Source: Dongia rigui
GTDB lineage: Bacteria > Pseudomonadota > Alphaproteobacteria > Dongiales > Dongiaceae
Length of the DNA: 64,000 bases
Assembly: GCF_034044635.1 (NCBI RefSeq)
Contig: NZ_JAXCLX010000001.1
Location: forward strand, 806,001 to 870,000
Reading direction: 5' to 3'
Shown here: in pieces, positions 20,634 to 29,033 of the stretch
Layout of the letters: the number at the start of each line of letters is the position of its first letter
Numbering within the stretch: position 1 is the stretch's first letter
Made by a program: the position numbers and the translations under genes
Notes under the pieces: generated by a model
Told to the model about the DNA's origin: nothing
The model's database searches: none
The model's input: the letters and a program-made list of their open reading frames with translations, nothing else

Positions 20634-22601
20634 ATGCCGCCGACTGCGGTCATCGATGGCGCCGAGAAGGCCAAAGCAGCACAGATTGCCGCTGTACCGG
20701 CCACCATTCGCGCCCTGCTCGCAGACCTGATGCTGAGCAACACCACGGAAACCATCATCGTCACGGATGGCGATCTGACATCCGCACTCGGTCCCCGCAT
20801 CGAGTTTGCCAATTCAGTGATCACCGCCATCTGGGATCACCCAGAGAAGAGCCTTGTTGGCCAGCCGGTATCCTGCCTGTGGAAGAAGGGAACCCATCAA
20901 GCTGAAATCGCTCGGCTGCAGGATGCGGCCCAAGCGCGCCAAGCCACTATTTCAGAAGTCGAAACGGTAACCCCGGCAGGAAAGGTGCTGTGGCTCGAAG
21001 TCAGCACCACGCCGATGTTCGGCACCGACGGAACGCTCAAGCATTTCGTCCGCGTCGGCCGCGACATCACCGAGCGCAAGAAGGCAGATCTCTACCGCGA
21101 ATCCACCCAGCGGCTGCTGGCATCGGTCTTCGGCGTCATCAACCAGGCGCTGGCCGTGGCCGATGATGCCGGCAACATCCTGATGGCAAACACCGCCCTC
21201 ACCCGCCGCTTCGGCTGGAGCGTGTTCGATCTCACCGGCAAGCCGTTCACGACGCTGCTCGGCGCCGAGGACGGGCCGCGCATGCTCAAGATGATGCGCT
21301 CGGGCGAAGCACTCGACCAGACGCGGCACGCCGGCGCGATGCTGCGGGTCAAGAACAAGCCCGAGCAGGATGGCGAGGTCGAACTCACCACGGTGCTGCA
21401 GGGCGACGGCAAGCATTGCCACATCCTGGTGCTGCGGCCGAGCGAGGCGCAGCAGACCAAGCAGCAATGGGATCTTGAAATGGCGATGCGCGATGCGCTC
21501 AACGCCGACAAGGACAAGCCGCAGCTTGTGGCAGGCAAGCTGCAGCTGGTGGGACTGCAGGACATCAAGGAGGCGCTGGGCGAAAAGTGGCCGTCGATCG
21601 CCGAGCGCGCCTACAGCGTTGCCGAGCGCACGATCGAAAAGCATATGCGCAGCGGCGACATCTTCCGCCGCTCGGCCGATGACGGCTATCTGGTACTCTT
21701 CGCCAATCTCACCGAGACCGAGGCGCAGTTCAAGGCGCGCGCCATCGCTAACGAAATCAAGGCGCGGCTGACCGGCGTCGACCCGGTCCTGGTCGATGCC
21801 CAGGTCTCCAGCGTGACGAAACAGGTGCCGCTCGCCGATCATATCGGCAAGCCGGAAGAAACGATCGTGGCCGCCATCGAGCGGCGCCTCAAGACCGAGC
21901 GCGAACGGGTGCGCCTCGAAGCCACGGAGCGCATGGAACAGGGCCTGCGCAACGAGCGGGCGATCATCCTCAACGCCACCAATGTCAAAGGCGAAGCGTC
22001 GGCGATCAGTTTCATGCGCCTGCCCAAGGCGCTGCGCACCGCCACCGATTCACTGGTGGCCCTGGGCGAGGTGAAATACGCGCTGGAGTCCGAGACCTTT
22101 CTGCTGGCAGGCGCCGCGGAGCGAGTCCTCTCGTCTCTCGGCGAGAACGCCTCGGAATTGCTGGTGGCGCCGGTGCGGCTGGAAACGCTCACCCGCCCCA
22201 AGGACGCGCTGGGCTGGTTCAACGTCGCCCGCACGCTCGGCGACAGCTGCAAACGCAATATCATCGCGGAAATCCGCCATGCGCCTCGCGACATCGCCGC
22301 CTCTCTGCTGGAGGATCTGGTGATGCGCCTGTCGCCCCTCTTTAAATCGGTGGCGGTGGAGCTGCCCGGCCTCGACGCCGCTTTCATCGGGCGGCTGCCG
22401 CGCCATGTCCGCTTGGTGACGCTGGCCGCAAGGACGGTGCCGATGGGCGCCGACAAGAAGCCGACACCGGCCTTCGGCAAGCTGGCCCAGATGCTGGAAC
22501 TGCATCAGCGCCGGCTCATCCTCCGCAATCCCGCGACACCTGAGCAGATGAAGGCGCTGGCGGCGGGCAGCGCCACCCTCTTCCTGCGCGACCAGGTCTG
22601 A
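20634..22601 (+). CDS. Two-PAS signalling protein with degenerate GGDEF-like and C-terminal regions
   Basis: A 655-residue protein without membrane helices. PAS-A spans about residues 32-148 and ends in the usual HFVRVGRDITERKK; PAS-B spans about 160-268. Residues 300-395 resemble a GGDEF fold (RSGDIFRRSADDGYLVLF in place of GGDEF-type residues) without the catalytic motif. Residues 430-655 may be a decayed EAL-like domain without the EAL signature. I infer a cytoplasmic sensor that no longer makes or breaks c-di-GMP and works by protein contacts or nucleotide binding. The start ATG 20634 has GGAAAG seven bases upstream. It stands alone, about 280 bases from the divergent MarR gene. Confidence 0.7.
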   Translation: MPPTAVIDGAEKAKAAQIAAVPATIRALLADLMLSNTTETIIVTDGDLTSALGPRIEFANSVITAIWDHPEKSLVGQPVSCLWKKGTHQAEIARLQDAAQARQATISEVETVTPAGKVLWLEVSTTPMFGTDGTLKHFVRVGRDITERKKADLYRESTQRLLASVFGVINQALAVADDAGNILMANTALTRRFGWSVFDLTGKPFTTLLGAEDGPRMLKMMRSGEALDQTRHAGAMLRVKNKPEQDGEVELTTVLQGDGKHCHILVLRPSEAQQTKQQWDLEMAMRDALNADKDKPQLVAGKLQLVGLQDIKEALGEKWPSIAERAYSVAERTIEKHMRSGDIFRRSADDGYLVLFANLTETEAQFKARAIANEIKARLTGVDPVLVDAQVSSVTKQVPLADHIGKPEETIVAAIERRLKTERERVRLEATERMEQGLRNERAIILNATNVKGEASAISFMRLPKALRTATDSLVALGEVKYALESETFLLAGAAERVLSSLGENASELLVAPVRLETLTRPKDALGWFNVARTLGDSCKRNIIAEIRHAPRDIAASLLEDLVMRLSPLFKSVAVELPGLDAAFIGRLPRHVRLVTLAARTVPMGADKKPTPAFGKLAQMLELHQRRLILRNPATPEQMKALAAGSATLFLRDQV

Positions 22602-22638: not shown

Positions 22639-23205
22639 TCAGCCCGAGATATAGGCTTCCCACGTCATCTCCGGCGTGAAACCGTCATTGCAGGGCAGCA
22701 CCAGGAGCTTCCCCGGCCAGCGCTTGTCCTTGGCCAGACAATCGATGAAGTCATCGAGGAACGGCCCCACCACGCTCTCGCTGCGGCGGAAGACGACGCG
22801 GTTGCCGGGAAACGGAATCTTCTGCCACAGCGTGATGGGATCGGAGCAGGGCCGCAGCACCGCCTGGCCGGTATTGTCCTGCGGCATGCCGAGGCACTGG
22901 CCGGTCAGCTTGTTCCGGATGCGGATGACGTCGATCGTGCCGTTCCGCGGGAAGATCTCCTGCCACAGCTGCGAATCCTTGGCGAAGGTCGTGGCGTTCA
23001 GCCGCACATAGCCGCTGACGCGCTGGTCCTTATCGACCGCATCCCAGGCGCGCAAGGCACCGCCCAGATAATCGTCATGCACCGAGCCGCGTAGATGGAA
23101 ATAGCCGGCGGGCAGCGCAAAGGCCGGCATGATAAACTCAAACGACACCAGCAGGCCGGCAGCGACACCGCAGGCAAGACCGACACGCTTTAAGAACGAC
23201 CGCAT
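22639..23205 (-). CDS. Secreted ricin-B-like (beta-trefoil) protein of unknown function
   Basis: A 188-residue protein with a signal peptide (about residues 1-30, ending AFA). The mature part has three similarly spaced aromatic motifs: QLW at 79-81, TLW at 125-127 and MTW at 180-182. Cysteine pairs occur at 104/120 and 156/172 within NKLTGQCLG...LRPC and DCLAKD...LPC. This resembles the QxW repeats of ricin-type beta-trefoil carbohydrate-binding domains. There is no catalytic domain. The ATG at 23205 is chosen because GGAGGGAAT lies just upstream; a frame extending to 23244 is possible. The gene is encoded opposite both neighbours and shows no operon partners. A periplasmic or extracellular binding role is inferred. 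Confidence 0.6.
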   Translation of the reverse strand: MRSFLKRVGLACGVAAGLLVSFEFIMPAFALPAGYFHLRGSVHDDYLGGALRAWDAVDKDQRVSGYVRLNATTFAKDSQLWQEIFPRNGTIDVIRIRNKLTGQCLGMPQDNTGQAVLRPCSDPITLWQKIPFPGNRVVFRRSESVVGPFLDDFIDCLAKDKRWPGKLLVLPCNDGFTPEMTWEAYISG

Positions 23206-23552
23206 ATTCCCTCCGTGATCGAAGCAGCGCGAGAACCGCGCCACCGATGGAGATGAACCTGCGCACGCCTTGCCGTGCCGACAAGGGCTGCGATCTCCGC
23301 AAGGCGCGGACCTGTGATGCCGCGCACGCGGTCGGGCATCTTCTTACCCAGCCACCCACCTCGCTGCGACCTCGCCGAAGCGCGGCCCCCGCAGCCAATA
23401 GGTGTTCAGTCTTGCGTCGATGACGACTTTTGCAGCCAATCTGCGCGCCAATCGCCCAAGAGTCGGTGAATCCAGCATAGTTTGCTTGCCCCCGCCTCGA
23501 TGGGCCGTACAATCTCGTGTCGTTGTCCTGGATAATTTCTAACCGGCGACAC

Positions 23553-25124
23553 ATGCACGAAGCACCGCGCCAGCTGATCTCGGCCCATCTCTCCAGCGAG
23601 CCCGCGGGGGCACGGGAGTTCCGCGCGGCCTGGATCATGATCGCCGCCTCGGCCGCGGTCTTTGTGGTGGCCATCTGTTTTGCGCGTCAGCCGCTCGTCG
23701 AGTTTCCCGTCTTCATCCCGATCTATGTCACCACCTTGGTGCTGTGCGACCTCGTCACCGCCGTGCTGCTCTTTGGCCAGTACCGCGCGCGGATGTCGCC
23801 GGGCCTTCTCATGCTGGCCGGTGGATACTTCTTCACCGCCACGGCGACCGCCGCCTATGCGCTGATCTTCCCCGGCCTCTTCGCGCCCACCGGGCTGTTC
23901 GGCGCCGGGCCGCAGACATCCTCGGCCATGTACATGTTCTGGCATGCGGGCTTCCCGATGCTGGTGATGCTCTATGCCCTCACCAAGCGCCCGCAAGCTG
24001 AAGCCGGAAGGGCGCAACGTGCCGATGCCGATGCCGAGAGCGCGGCACCACGGCTCAACCACGCCAAGGCCCGCGCGCGGATCTGGACCGTCATCGCCGC
24101 CGTGCTGCTGGCGGTCGCCGCATTCACGGCGTTTGCGACACAGGGGCAGGAGCTGCTGCCGGTCTTCCTCGACGTCAACCGCACCACGGTCACGGGCAAG
24201 GTCTTCCTCATCGGCATCTGGCTGCTGGCGCTCGTTGCGCTCATCCTGCATTGGCAGCGCAGGCCGCATGCCGTGCTCGATGTGTGGCTCTATGTCGTGC
24301 TCAGTGCCTGGCTGTTCGACATCGCGCTCTCGGCGGTGCTCAACACCGGGCGCTATGATCTTGGCTGGTATGCCGGCCGCATCTATGGCCTGGTCGCGGC
24401 CTGCTATCTGCTGATCGTGCTGCTCAGCGAGAACGCGCGCCATTATGACCGGCTGGTGCAGAACAGCGCCGACCTCCGGACCGCCAATGAGACGCTGCTG
24501 CAGATGTCGATGCAGGATGGCCTCACCGGCCTTGCCCACCGGCGCGCCTTCGACACCTATCTGGCCGAGCAGATGGCGATCGCCCAGCGCCACAAGCGGG
24601 CATTGACGCTGTTGGTGGTCGATGCCGACCACTTCAAGGCCTATAACGACCAATACGGCCATCAGGCCGGCGACGATTGCCTGAAGGCCATCGCCGACGC
24701 CTTGCGCACCAGCTGCCACCGCCCGGGCGACCTGGCCGCCCGCCATGGCGGCGAGGAGTTCTCACTGATCCTGCCCGATACCGACCGCGCCGGCGCCGCC
24801 CATATGGCCGCCGCCGTGCTGGATGCCGTGGCACGGCTCGGCATACCGCATGCCCGCAGCACGAGCGCCCCTTGTGTCAGCGTCAGCATCGGCGCCGCCA
24901 TCCTGCCGACAGAAGCCAGCACCCGCATCACCCCCGCCCAGCTCAGCGCCCAAGCCGACGCCGCCCTCTACCGCGCCAAGGCGAACGGCCGGAACCAGGC
25001 CGTGATCAGCGATGGCGAGGAAGCCTGGGCAGCCCCCGCCCGCCATGCCGCCCCACCAGCGCCAGATAGCGGCGCCCTCTCAACAACGATGCCCACGCAA
25101 GCCCTGCAACCGCGCACGACGTGA
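23553..25124 (+). CDS. MASE4-like membrane diguanylate cyclase (GGDEF)
   Basis: A 523-residue protein. The N-terminal half has about eight hydrophobic helices and resembles the MASE4 sensory domain (IPIYVTTLVLCDLVTAVLLFGQ). The C-terminal half is a GGDEF domain with DGLTGLAHRRAF, metal-binding VVDADHFKAYND and the active-site ARHGGEEFSLIL, so catalysis should be intact. There is no clear I-site (RxxD) five residues before GGEEF, where LAARH is seen. It would make c-di-GMP in response to a membrane-associated or small-molecule signal. The start may be ATG 23553 or GTG 23517. The last 30 residues are low-complexity. Confidence 0.88.
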   Translation: MHEAPRQLISAHLSSEPAGAREFRAAWIMIAASAAVFVVAICFARQPLVEFPVFIPIYVTTLVLCDLVTAVLLFGQYRARMSPGLLMLAGGYFFTATATAAYALIFPGLFAPTGLFGAGPQTSSAMYMFWHAGFPMLVMLYALTKRPQAEAGRAQRADADAESAAPRLNHAKARARIWTVIAAVLLAVAAFTAFATQGQELLPVFLDVNRTTVTGKVFLIGIWLLALVALILHWQRRPHAVLDVWLYVVLSAWLFDIALSAVLNTGRYDLGWYAGRIYGLVAACYLLIVLLSENARHYDRLVQNSADLRTANETLLQMSMQDGLTGLAHRRAFDTYLAEQMAIAQRHKRALTLLVVDADHFKAYNDQYGHQAGDDCLKAIADALRTSCHRPGDLAARHGGEEFSLILPDTDRAGAAHMAAAVLDAVARLGIPHARSTSAPCVSVSIGAAILPTEASTRITPAQLSAQADAALYRAKANGRNQAVISDGEEAWAAPARHAAPPAPDSGALSTTMPTQALQPRTT

Positions 25125-25354
25125 CGGGGCGAGGGTGGCGACAAGCGCGAAAAAGAAGAAGCAAAGCCTCACGCCCCTCCCCAGCGCCAGTACCGGCGAA
25201 ACGTGCCGATGTCGGCCGCCATTTCGGCAAGACCTTCCGCTTCTACCTGGGTGAGTGCTGAGCCGATGTCAGCTTCAATGAGAATCACGGACGCAGACTG
25301 AATTTATGATGCACGTCTTAGACAATGGGTGGATATCATTTTGTTGGAACAGAA

Positions 25355-25653
25355 ATGGCTGCGACAAAATCAAAATCGACACTTTCTGATGCTTCACGCT
25401 GCGCCGTGGGTCGCGCGCCTACTCACCCGGGAGTAATCTTAAAGCACGAAGCCTTGGACGTGCGGATTCTTTCGCAGCAAGAACTCGCTGCCTCCATGAA
25501 CTCTCTAGGCTCACCGTTAATGAGCTAATTAAAGGAAAGCGTGAAAATAAAAGAAAGCAGGCATGTAGGCTGGAACGGCTAACCGATATCCGTACAGAGA
25601 CTTGCCTAGAAATGCAGCGCGGCTTCAATCTCCGGCACGCGGCAAATCAGTAA
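25355..25653 (+). pseudogene. HigA-family antitoxin gene inactivated by a frameshift
   Basis: The first part reads GRAPTHPGVILKHEALDV...LSQQELAASMN, the start of a HigA/VapI-type helix-turn-helix antitoxin (usual pattern RPTHPGE, then a Ser-Gln-containing helix). After codon AAC near 25500 the original frame stops at 25528. Reading in the -1 frame from about 25502 restores LSRLTVNELIKGKREN and then RLERLTDIRTETCLEMQRGFNLR, the expected recognition helix and C-terminal helices, ending at TAA 25651-25653. Together they give about 99 residues, the family's normal length. A one-base deletion best explains this. No HigB toxin gene is recognisable on either side. Confidence 0.65.
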
Positions 25654-25789
25654 ACCGAAGTGCTTGCTGTTATCATACATTTAGAGCAGTCATGATACAA
25701 AGAGGCTGCGGTCGCAGACCCGCTCGTGGTTTAGTACGCTGTGCGAAAGCACTATGCCAACTTCACCTTAGACTGCTCTGCGAGATCGT

Positions 25790-26188
25790 CTATTCAAGTT
25801 CAAGTCGGACCTTCTCTCGTGCGGCGTTAATAGTATCTACTGCCTTCTGTCGACATGGAGGTAATGGCCCACATGTAGAGATCAGGTCCGCAGCCTGCAC
25901 TAAAATCGAGTCTTGATATCGAATGATTTCTGCCAGCGCCCCACTCTTATCGGAAGACGCGCCAGTTTCCGATCCTCCAAACAAACCTGATATTACAATG
26001 CCCGCTAAAATAACCAGCACGGCAAGTAAGCCAACCTTCCAATCTCGACGAACACGTTCCATAGGATTAATTGGGGAGGTCGCAACGAACCTCCTTATAT
26101 CTCTTGCAAGACTAATCAATTTAGCGCTGGCATCCTGAAGAGACGAAGGATTCACTGCACCTTGGTCTGCATTGTCATTGACGTTCAT
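25790..26188 (-). CDS. Unknown single-span membrane protein, second gene of a pair
   Basis: A 132-residue protein of no recognised family. A hydrophilic N-terminal half of about 50 residues is followed by one transmembrane helix (KVGLLAVLVILAGIVISGLF). A short outer domain contains two cysteines in a STCGPLPPCR loop, which could form a disulfide in the periplasm, and ends in a charged helix. It overlaps the upstream gene by 14 bases, so the two are probably co-translated. ATG 26188 is chosen because GGTGAGG precedes it; ATG 26200 is the alternative. Its DNA is AT-richer than the flanking chromosome and lies in an accessory patch. Confidence 0.6.
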   Translation of the reverse strand: MNVNDNADQGAVNPSSLQDASAKLISLARDIRRFVATSPINPMERVRRDWKVGLLAVLVILAGIVISGLFGGSETGASSDKSGALAEIIRYQDSILVQAADLISTCGPLPPCRQKAVDTINAAREKVRLELE

Positions 26189-26837
26189 CTGCCTCACCAT
26201 CAGCCGTTAAGCGGGGCGCTGCGAGCGCTGGATCACTCGGCAGGCTCGCGACCCTAGGCGCATGCCCTGTCTCGATACCCCTCGTTGAGGAAAAGAACTG
26301 TTCAACAATTCGATTGGCCGCTTCAATCTCTTCGAGAATTCCCCGGAACGCTGCTTCGTCTCCGACCCTGGGTTGAAGATCCCGGACTCGCGACTTTATA
26401 GCATCATTTACGGATTGCACTGTAGCGGCGTAAGCTCGGATTTGGGTGTCAACCACTCGTCTCGCCGCGTCATTTCCGACCACCTCAGGGGCATCAGCAA
26501 TTGGTTTGATGAAGTTTGCGAAGCTCTTGGTAAGGGCGTGCAGATAGTCAAGGACACTAACAAGGGTGCGAACATCATCCTTTGCACTTTGTCTCTTCGA
26601 CAACTCAGAAATTGAATTTGTTACGTCGATGATAGAATCGACTTTCTTTTCGACTTCCGCGTAATGCTCCGATCGCGCATCAAAGGAAATAAGGTAGGTA
26701 AAGGCAATAATCATCGCCTGCGCCAGCCCTTTGATCGCGACATTCGCGACGTCACTGTCCAACTTGAACTGAGGCCAATCTAGAACAAAGAGCACCCCCA
26801 GCAGCACGAGCCATACAACCACCAAAAAGATTCTCAT
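26175..26837 (-). CDS. Unknown two-span membrane protein with long helical cytoplasmic domain
   Basis: A 220-residue protein. Two N-terminal hydrophobic helices (about residues 3-20 and 33-51) form a hairpin. A long, charged, probably coiled-coil region (55-190) follows, with heptad-like stretches such as VEKKVDSIIDVTNSISEL. The last 30 residues are acidic and Pro/Ala-rich. No enzyme motif is visible. It is the first gene of a two-gene unit with the single-span protein at 25790-26188. Both point away from the small ORF at 27059. Membrane-anchored coiled-coil pairs occur in several stress or phage-defence systems, but nothing here proves such a role. Confidence 0.6.
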   Translation of the reverse strand: MRIFLVVVWLVLLGVLFVLDWPQFKLDSDVANVAIKGLAQAMIIAFTYLISFDARSEHYAEVEKKVDSIIDVTNSISELSKRQSAKDDVRTLVSVLDYLHALTKSFANFIKPIADAPEVVGNDAARRVVDTQIRAYAATVQSVNDAIKSRVRDLQPRVGDEAAFRGILEEIEAANRIVEQFFSSTRGIETGHAPRVASLPSDPALAAPRLTADGEADERQ

Positions 26838-27058
26838 TCGACCCTACCTACGCGCGAAACAACCTCACATACCTTTATACTAGACAAATACACTTTATAG
26901 GAGTCAAACTCTTTTAGTATCTGCGACTAAGTGCTCTGTCAGCTCGCCGGAAAGAAAGGTCGGCGATCACGACTTAAACCATGCGTCATGCGCCTAGCTT
27001 GGCTAAACCGTAGCCGCCCTCCTAAGTTGTTCATGTATCGCTGCAAAGGATCGCTACT

Positions 27059-27316
27059 ATGCAACCGCAGGACTTGTGCAATGCAATAAAAACAGCTTCA
27101 AATGGAAGCTCTATCGTTGGGAACGCTAGTGTCCAGCAAGCCGCCACATCACTTCTTCGGGTAGCAGAATTGTTCTCGCAGTCAGGTGGCTTCAGCGTTC
27201 ATAACGATCCTGTCAGCGGCGAAGAGTTTGTAATGAATGTTATGAACTCCGAAAAGCTGGTCGTGCGATATGCCGCGGACGACGGCTCCGGTGGGAGCTT
27301 GATCGTAGTTATATAG
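27059..27316 (+). CDS. Small hypothetical protein
   Basis: An 85-residue frame starts at ATG 27059 with AAAGGA eight bases upstream. It has a mixed, protein-like composition with an amphipathic N-terminal half (VQQAATSLLRVAELFSQ) and a C-terminal part rich in Val, Gly and Asp. There is no signal peptide, membrane helix or known motif. It lies in the AT-richer patch, divergent from the membrane-protein pair. It may be a real accessory gene or chance. Confidence 0.4.
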   Translation: MQPQDLCNAIKTASNGSSIVGNASVQQAATSLLRVAELFSQSGGFSVHNDPVSGEEFVMNVMNSEKLVVRYAADDGSGGSLIVVI

Positions 27317-27694
27317 CTGGCATCAGATTGCTTGGTTGTAGCAGAGTGCAGGCCGAGTGATGGCGCTTTGCTTCGTAACGAGAGCGTCCTTGCCTAGTAG
27401 AGTTGTAACCGAGCGGGGTCGACAAAACCTCCCCTTCAGATCAACGTTCCGACCATCTTGTTACCTACCGGCTCGAATTTCTTGCCTTGAACCCGTTCAT
27501 CGTCCCGTCATAATCCCGGAAGGTATCAACGACTTGAGCATGGGTAGGGGAGCACTGCGAACCCAAGGTCACTCCAGTTAAATCTAGTGGCTTGGAGAAC
27601 AGCACAAAGCAGAGGCCGTACACATCCGCAGGCTAAACAGGAAGCGCGCCCACCCGAAGCCGACGCGACTATTCCTCAACTCATCTCATCACCC
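27317..27694. other. Gene-poor end of the accessory patch
   Basis: This stretch joins the accessory patch to the gabT region. A 74-codon frame at 27357-27581 exists, but it lacks a ribosome-binding site and recognisable sequence, so I do not call it. No direct repeat marking an insertion boundary was found by eye. Confidence 0.4.
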
Positions 27695-27720
27695 CAGAGG
27701 TCGGGCCTGCCCGACCTCTG
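27695..27720 (-). terminator. Terminator-like hairpin downstream of gabT
   Basis: CAGAGGTCGGGC (27695-27706) and GCCCGACCTCTG (27709-27720) form a perfect 12-bp stem with almost no loop, beginning 11 bases after the gabT stop on the minus strand. No T-run follows on either side, so it is at best a Rho-assisted or RNA-stabilising hairpin. Confidence 0.55.
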
Positions 27721-27731
27721 AAGCGATAGTG

Positions 27732-29033
27732 TTACGCCGCCTTCGTCGCACCCTCGATCGCCTGGGCGATCGTTTTTTCGAGGATGTCGAAGCCTTCGTT
27801 GATGATCTTGTCCTCAGACGTCAAGGGCATCAGGAAGCGCAGCGTGTTGGCGTTGACACCGCAGGAGAGCAGGATGAGGCCGTTCTCGCCGGCCTTCGCG
27901 GTGATCGCCTTGGTGAGGTCCGCGTCGGGCGAGCCGTCGGCCTTGATGATGTCGCAGGCGACCATGGCGCCGAGGCCACGGATGTCACCAATACGATTGC
28001 CGGTGGTGTTGCGCTTCTTCATGTCGGCCAAGCGGTCCTTCATCAGCTTGCCGATGACATTGGCGCGCTCGACCAGCTTTTCCTCTTCCATGACATCGAG
28101 CACCGCATTGGCCGCAGCGCAGCCGATGGGCGAGCCGCCATAGGTGCCACCCAAACCGCCGGCGGACGGGGCGTCCATGATCTCGGCCTTGCCGATGACG
28201 CCGGAGAGCGGGAAGCCGCCGGCCAGCGATTTGGCGACCGTGATGAGGTCGGCTTCGATGCCGCTATGCTCATGGGCGAACATCTTGCCGGTGCGGCCGA
28301 AGCCGGTCTGGATCTCGTCGACGATCAGCATGATGCCGTGTTGCGTGCAGATCTCGCGCAGCTTTTTCATCAGCTCGAAGGGGACCGGGTTGAAACCGCC
28401 CTCGCCCTGCACCGGCTCGATGATGATGGCGGCGATGTTGTCCGGGCCGATATCGGCCTTGAACAGCGTCTCCAGGGTCTTCAGGGATTGCTGCACGCCG
28501 TCGGCCTGGGTGGGGTCGGGGAACGGCACGTGATAGACGTCGGTCGGGAACGGGCCGAAGCCCTTCTTATAGGGCAGGTACTTGCCGGTGAGCGCCATGC
28601 CCATCAGCGTGCGGCCGTGGAAGGCGCCGCTGAAGGCGATGATGCCGGCTCGCTTGGTGTGCGCGCGCGCAATCTTCACCGCGTTCTCGACCGCTTCGGC
28701 ACCGGTGGTCAGAAAGATGGTCTTCTTCGGCGTCGACCCGGGGGCGAGCTTGTTGAGGCGCTCCGCGAGGCGGATATAGCTCTCATAGGGGTTCACCTGG
28801 AAGCAGGTGTGGCTGAACTTGTCGAGCTGGTCCTTCACCGCGGCGATGATCTTGGGGTGGCCATGGCCGGTGTTCATGACGGCGATGCCGCCCGCAAAGT
28901 CGATATGACGCTTGCCCTCGACATCGGTGATCTCGGCGTTCTTGGCCTTCTCGGCAAAGATCGCATAGGCATTGCCAACACCGCGCGGCACGGCCGCTTC
29001 GCGGCGCTTCTGCAGGTTCGCATTCGACGTCAT
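27732..29033 (-). CDS. gabT: 4-aminobutyrate aminotransferase (class III, PLP-dependent)
   Basis: A 433-residue enzyme, normal for GabT. Class III hallmarks are FLTTGAEAVENAVKIAR for PLP phosphate binding, FSGAFHGRT, IVDEIQTGFGRTGKMF with the Asp that contacts the pyridine ring, and VAKSLAGGFPLSGV with the Schiff-base lysine. It transfers the amino group of GABA to 2-oxoglutarate, giving succinate semialdehyde. No succinate-semialdehyde dehydrogenase gene is adjacent. ATG 29033 is chosen for its GAGGG ribosome-binding site and family length. Other omega-aminotransferases share the motifs, so substrate is likely but not certain. A hairpin follows the stop. Confidence 0.88.
   Translation of the reverse strand: MTSNANLQKRREAAVPRGVGNAYAIFAEKAKNAEITDVEGKRHIDFAGGIAVMNTGHGHPKIIAAVKDQLDKFSHTCFQVNPYESYIRLAERLNKLAPGSTPKKTIFLTTGAEAVENAVKIARAHTKRAGIIAFSGAFHGRTLMGMALTGKYLPYKKGFGPFPTDVYHVPFPDPTQADGVQQSLKTLETLFKADIGPDNIAAIIIEPVQGEGGFNPVPFELMKKLREICTQHGIMLIVDEIQTGFGRTGKMFAHEHSGIEADLITVAKSLAGGFPLSGVIGKAEIMDAPSAGGLGGTYGGSPIGCAAANAVLDVMEEEKLVERANVIGKLMKDRLADMKKRNTTGNRIGDIRGLGAMVACDIIKADGSPDADLTKAITAKAGENGLILLSCGVNANTLRFLMPLTSEDKIINEGFDILEKTIAQAIEGATKAA

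Follow-up and report, generated by a model that had tools for sequence, protein, structure and literature searches.

In Rz/Rz1 spanins, as in superinfection-exclusion proteins, small genes for membrane proteins overlap and a one-span protein carries a periplasmic helical part; spanins in addition lie in a lysis-gene context and have a lipoprotein partner in the outer membrane. The SLATT effectors of conflict systems follow another plan, in which two spans are followed by cytosolic helices. SLATT is predicted to act as a pore-forming effector (PMC7159879). ZorAB, a stator of the MotAB/ExbBD type in the anti-phage system Zorya, combines a membrane protein that has a cytoplasmic helical extension with a one-span protein that has a periplasmic C-terminal part. 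In ZorAB, MotAB and ExbBD, the one-span subunit requires a conserved Asp within its span (PMC11890865).

Here we describe a pair of overlapping genes, A and B, in a window of 64,000 nucleotides from Dongia rigui. What is new about the pair is its place: the AT-rich insert that carries it ends at the gabT terminator, where the sister species has a Lamassu operon instead. The coordinates of the features are collected in Table 1, and the two genes and their overlap of 14 bases lie exactly where the first-pass annotation had put them. The strand upstream of the gene B ATG at 26188 reads GGTGAGGCAG, a Shine-Dalgarno-like run. An in-frame ATG further upstream, at 26200, would give a protein of 136 aa and an overlap of 26 bases with A.

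Table 1. Features of the insert and its edges (positions in the window)
Feature	Position	Strand	Description
Gene remnant, insert left edge	25158..25284	+	Small secreted-looking protein; open in L026 (15679-16002) and L027 (7777-8313)
AT-rich insert carrying the pair	about 25285..27691	.	Left edge in broken host gene, right edge at gabT terminator
HigA-type antitoxin, frameshifted	25325..25650	+	In two frames; NCBIfam TIGR02607
Gene B	25790..26188	-	132 aa; one membrane span, predicted C-terminal helical hairpin with Cys pair at turn
A/B overlap	26175..26188	-	14 bases, A 3' end over B start; SD-like GGTGAGG just upstream of B ATG
Gene A	26175..26837	-	220 aa; two membrane spans (about 2-19, 29-52), predicted helical bundle (85-187), Pro/Ala-rich tail
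Orphan 85-aa ORF, divergent from A	27059..27316	+	Coding support weak (96/2000 shuffles)
Terminator-like hairpin just after gabT	27688..27727	-	Insert right edge

Are A and B real genes? When 25300-27700 was simulated 2000 times with a first-order Markov model, the longest ORF had at least 220 aa in 0.6% of the simulations and at least 136 aa in 21%, so that the length of gene A is significant while that of gene B by itself is not. Codon use was then scored with a table built on the Lamassu genes, low in GC, that the sister genome (G005) carries. For each gene its own frame was the sole positive one of the six, and base shuffles scored as high in 0/2000 cases for A and 1/2000 for B (26188 start). 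Both are thus supported as coding genes by the codon tests.

Membrane spans were called from 19-residue hydropathy windows with a threshold of at least 1.6. In gene A, which starts with ATG and encodes no Cys, windows over the threshold begin at residues 1-8 and 33. The first span is strong and lies at the extreme N-terminus; a short loop joins it to a weaker second span, barely above threshold (best hydropathy 1.64, window starting at 33), and the remainder is helical. A single-sequence AlphaFold2 model places helices at 58-79, 85-114, 123-158 and 161-187. Its pLDDT averages 71-80 per block over residues 81 to 180 and 61 overall, which is low confidence. In this model the helices would form a bundle rather than one rod, and the bundle (85-187) is probably cytosolic. 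Of the earlier description of A as a two-span protein with a long coiled coil, the two spans therefore stand, the second marginally, and the coiled coil gives way to the modelled bundle.

For gene B (136-aa numbering throughout), windows of at least 1.6 begin at 52-61, in agreement with the single span previously proposed. The span lies at about 56-75, and residues 56 to 77 contain no charged residue. Because a basic stretch precedes the span, the positive-inside rule suggests an N-in/C-out topology, and the C-terminal hairpin is thus read as periplasmic. AlphaFold2 models this part as two helices, 85-110 and 114-135, in a poor model (mean pLDDT 52). The only Cys residues, 110 and 116, are at the modelled hairpin turn, a position which fits the disulfide suggested by the first-pass annotation; the bond would form in the periplasm.

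The insert is distinct in composition. GC is 0.47-0.56 in 400-base windows starting 25200 to 27400 versus 0.575-0.71 elsewhere in 18-34 kb, which bears out the view of the region as an accessory patch. At its left edge, the remnant shows 74-75% identity to part of a gene of congeners (L026, L027), and the likeness ends at 25284. At its right edge, the gabT hairpin folds far better than shuffles both in the window and in the sister species (0/200 each). The decayed toxin-antitoxin gene noticed earlier is indeed present: the two pieces of HigA cover TIGR02607 positions 2-31 in one frame and 33-80 in the other, each alone under cut-off, and visual inspection of all six frames of 25285-25790 showed no HigB. 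The dead HigA is another mark of accessory turnover in the insert. No ORF of the insert is longer than A. Among the four insert ORFs scanned, there was no match to a nuclease, nucleotide-signal, protease or peptidoglycan-binding family, no kinase, cyclase, sigma or DNA-binding partner, and no toxin, antitoxin or immunity family above cut-off. A scan limited to the sigma-70 consensus gave no promoter-like site on the minus strand of 25250-27750, and Rfam gave nothing over 24900-28000 at gathering score. AlpA, a mobile-element marker, was found at two places on contig C2 of the same genome and nowhere on C1, the contig of the window. The 85-aa ORF has a weak PHROGs match (phrog_11937, E 0.015), and its protein (P0004) matched nothing in plasmids. 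To the left of the insert, the variable stretch between marR and gabT holds genes for a PAS-domain protein (20634-22601) and a MASE4-GGDEF diguanylate cyclase (23517-25124). Between these lies a gene for a secreted-looking protein (22639-23244) with weak, sub-cut-off beta-trefoil matches (ricin-B-lectin, CDtoxinA), a hint of a lectin-like fold only.

What is found at the same place in related genomes? A gabT match is present in 15 of the 17 family genomes, own genome included, and neighbourhoods were compared for 10, that is, the window and 9 others (G001, G006, G013, G014 and G015 are outside the comparison). The nearest sister species is G005, whose GabT, 97% identical, is the closest of the 14 others found. 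Similarity between the two resumes at window position 27692 (L025 14651), beside the gabT terminator. Across the junction, directly downstream of gabT, the sister species has a Lamassu operon (ABC-3C) of LmuA, LmuC and LmuB at L025 11178-14516, with PADLOC E values of 9.6e-87, 6.8e-50 (Pfam MC2 1.3e-44) and 1.8e-150, respectively. The GC3 of these genes is 0.48-0.51 versus 0.88 in gabT, and the reading frame nearest to the junction, LmuA, starts 135 bases away. This LmuA also carries a sub-cut-off Mrr-like match. In G002 a single low-GC3 ORF (P0011, 0.51; L028 6125-7528) lies roughly 100 bases from gabT, while in G003 there are two (P0009, 0.52, and P0010, 0.49; L027 6267-7650) at a distance of about 2.4 kb; none of the three matched a family above cut-off in the libraries tried. 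By heuristic ORF picks, no gene with GC3 below 0.6 lies beside gabT in G007, G004, G008, G009, G011 or G012. Low-GC3 cargo is thus at or near gabT in 4 of the 10 neighbourhoods, all of the window's genus, and one of the four is a recognised defence system. The window and the sister species have the right junction alone in common; since their left edges differ, a common mode of insertion is not demonstrated. The gabT junction is thus a site of accessory-gene turnover where at least one cargo is anti-phage; the term defence hotspot would claim more than this evidence shows.

Do A and B have relatives elsewhere? No credible one was detected in Pfam, PHROGs, NCBIfam, PADLOC, PDB sequences, phages, plasmids, viral contigs or GTDB contigs, or in 17 family, 385 class and 398 phylum genomes (the class and phylum draws overlap in genomes). 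The best profile rows for A are sub-cut-off, at E 0.032 (Pfam HBM; NCBIfam SapS) and E 0.05 (PHROGs); HBM, a helical sensor domain, scored 14.1 bits versus a cut-off of 29.8. A further sub-cut-off match of A, to the ABC-3C middle component 7 of Pfam (E 0.072, 13.6 bits against 27), was taken as chance. The best row for B is at E 0.053 (NCBIfam), and PHROGs gave nothing for it. No PADLOC profile matched either protein at E up to 1; among PDB sequences, A had a single row, the RecN coiled coil (E 0.27), and B had none at E up to 1. Plasmids and phages gave no match to A or B by tblastn and none to the insert DNA, and viral and GTDB contigs gave none to 8-residue peptide patterns, which reach close relatives only. 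Compared with nine other proteins (cargo, neighbours and the Lmu proteins of the sister species), A or B reached at best E 0.36, which is chance level.

In the family, A and B each occur in 1 of the 17 genomes, their own, and are absent from the 16 others. At E up to 0.01, A was matched in 5 and B in 4 of the 385 class genomes, and likewise in 5 and 4 of the 398 phylum genomes, own genome included each time. The 14 matches outside the own genome have E values of 7.7e-4 to 0.0093 per genome and are about as many as expected by chance. All 14 were rejected as relatives after the stretch and open frame of each had been inspected. A Pfam scan of ten of the frames placed every one in a known family unrelated to A and B: SecD/SecF, Band 7, histidine kinase, PIN_3, dehydroquinate synthase (where the match itself passes a stop and continues in the following gene), UPF0014 (two frames), LolA, DctM and SPOR. 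The other four were judged by eye: L039 is nearly identical to the L036 stretch, L004 reads as a frame antisense to an AhcY-like gene, L037 resembles L004, and L008 has no assigned identity.

A fold search was made for A alone, with its low-confidence model. Foldseek gave no match at E <=0.001 in PDB or BFVD, the best BFVD row being an uncharacterised Pandoravirus protein (E 0.12, TM 0.37). In VIA-align, where 490 of 492 chains were aligned, the best Z was 12.3 (1o5h_B, rmsd 4.1 over 167), within the range given for helical bundles; no row was distinct from helical bundles, and such a result excludes no family. The best reading is that A and B are a lineage-restricted orphan pair, for which the collections searched gave no relatives. 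The earlier statement that neither protein belongs to a known family agrees with the profile and sequence searches of both and with the fold search of A.

There is a further question, what such a pair might do. The pair is a real orphan at an informative site, and the sequence holds nothing that fixes its function. We tentatively favour, as a possibility drawn wholly from site and anatomy, that A and B form one inner-membrane complex, carried as accessory cargo and most likely serving phage defence or entry exclusion. Phage defence is preferred because of the site and of the general plan, a small membrane pair with a periplasmic sensor-like part and a cytosolic bundle. In such a complex A and B would bind each other, and translational coupling would fix their ratio. 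A would be a two-span hairpin gated by its own cytosolic helical bundle, while B would anchor or sense through its periplasmic, probably disulfide-stapled helical hairpin. When the entry of phage DNA disturbs the envelope, B might shift, and A might then block injection or make the membrane leak. Counting against this reading are the lack of any homologue that would show co-occurrence or conservation, the absence of a PADLOC match, the single recognised defence system among the cargoes, the absence from the scanned insert ORFs of nuclease, nucleotide-signal, protease and peptidoglycan-binding matches and of any ORF longer than A, the left edges that differ between the window and the sister species, and the low confidence of the models. 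The first-pass annotation had suggested a small undescribed system such as a phage-defence pair or a membrane stress sensor; the former gained indirect support from the Lamassu operon at the same gabT-side junction, and the latter gained nothing specific.

Might the genes instead be mere passengers, foreign and of no lasting function here, heading for loss like the neighbouring HigA? The dead HigA within the insert, the gene remnant at its left edge, the restriction of the pair to one species among the family genomes searched, and the lack of a sigma-70-like promoter on the minus strand all point that way. But both frames are intact with coding-type codon use, and the promoter scan was limited to the sigma-70 consensus, so we regard this as somewhat unlikely; if it were so, the locus would be nothing more unusual than an accessory patch that holds orphan genes. 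Envelope-stress or periplasmic redox sensing, with the Cys hairpin of B reading the periplasm and A relaying to the cytosol, would suit the one span and Cys pair of B, the cytosolic helical region of its partner, the PAS-domain and MASE4-GGDEF genes to the left and the HBM match of A (E 0.032). We consider it distinctly unlikely: no partner of the kinase, cyclase, sigma or DNA-binding kind was matched in the insert, the GGDEF gene is located beyond the insert where GC is host-like, and a host-wide sensor would be expected in congeners, yet is absent from those searched. Small overlapping genes beside a dead antitoxin gene also recall a membrane toxin with a neutralising partner, either a toxin-antitoxin system or immunity to a rival's toxin, but no toxin, antitoxin or immunity family was found above cut-off, and this is very unlikely.

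Returning to phage defence, a bolder form of it is that A-B is the founding case of a membrane-only anti-phage module that alternates with Lamassu at the genus's gabT site. In it, a cytosolic helical bundle would gate a two-span effector, and this effector would be joined to a one-span periplasmic hairpin sensor. We hold this bolder form to be unlikely. If it is true, there is a membrane-only defence module invisible to the profile libraries used here, and the gabT terminator in the genus would be a place to seek further defence modules.

How does the pair then compare with the described systems? The tests made here place it outside Zorya/MotAB, SLATT, Lamassu and the spanins. Like the Rz/Rz1 spanins, A and B are encoded by small overlapping membrane-protein genes, and B has one span and a helical part read as periplasmic. 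The insert ORFs scanned, however, match no phage or lysis family (in PHROGs, A best E 0.05 and B nothing), and neither A nor B begins with a lipoprotein-type Cys. The likeness to SLATT lies in A, with two spans (the second marginal, 1.64) and then helices on what is probably the cytosolic side, but A has no SLATT profile match in Pfam at E up to 1, and no nucleotide-signal partner was matched in the insert. SLATT_4 gave 2 weak matches in 327 class genomes, 0 over cut-off and none in the own genome; the other SLATT models were tested solely through hmmscan of A. Lamassu, or ABC-3C, is found in the sister species at this very junction beside gabT, whereas neither A nor B gave a match to an Lmu profile at E up to 1, and no ORF in the insert is as large as LmuB. 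As for Zorya, HMMER searches of Pfam and PADLOC at E up to 1, which may miss very distant relatives, matched neither A nor B to a MotA/ExbB, OmpA-like or Zor model. The span of B has no charged residue, and hence no Asp, and B has no peptidoglycan-binding match; A has two spans only, and the insert has no ZorC/D/E. In its two-protein membrane plan, ZorAB is nevertheless like A and B, and it is their nearest analogue at the level of the plan.
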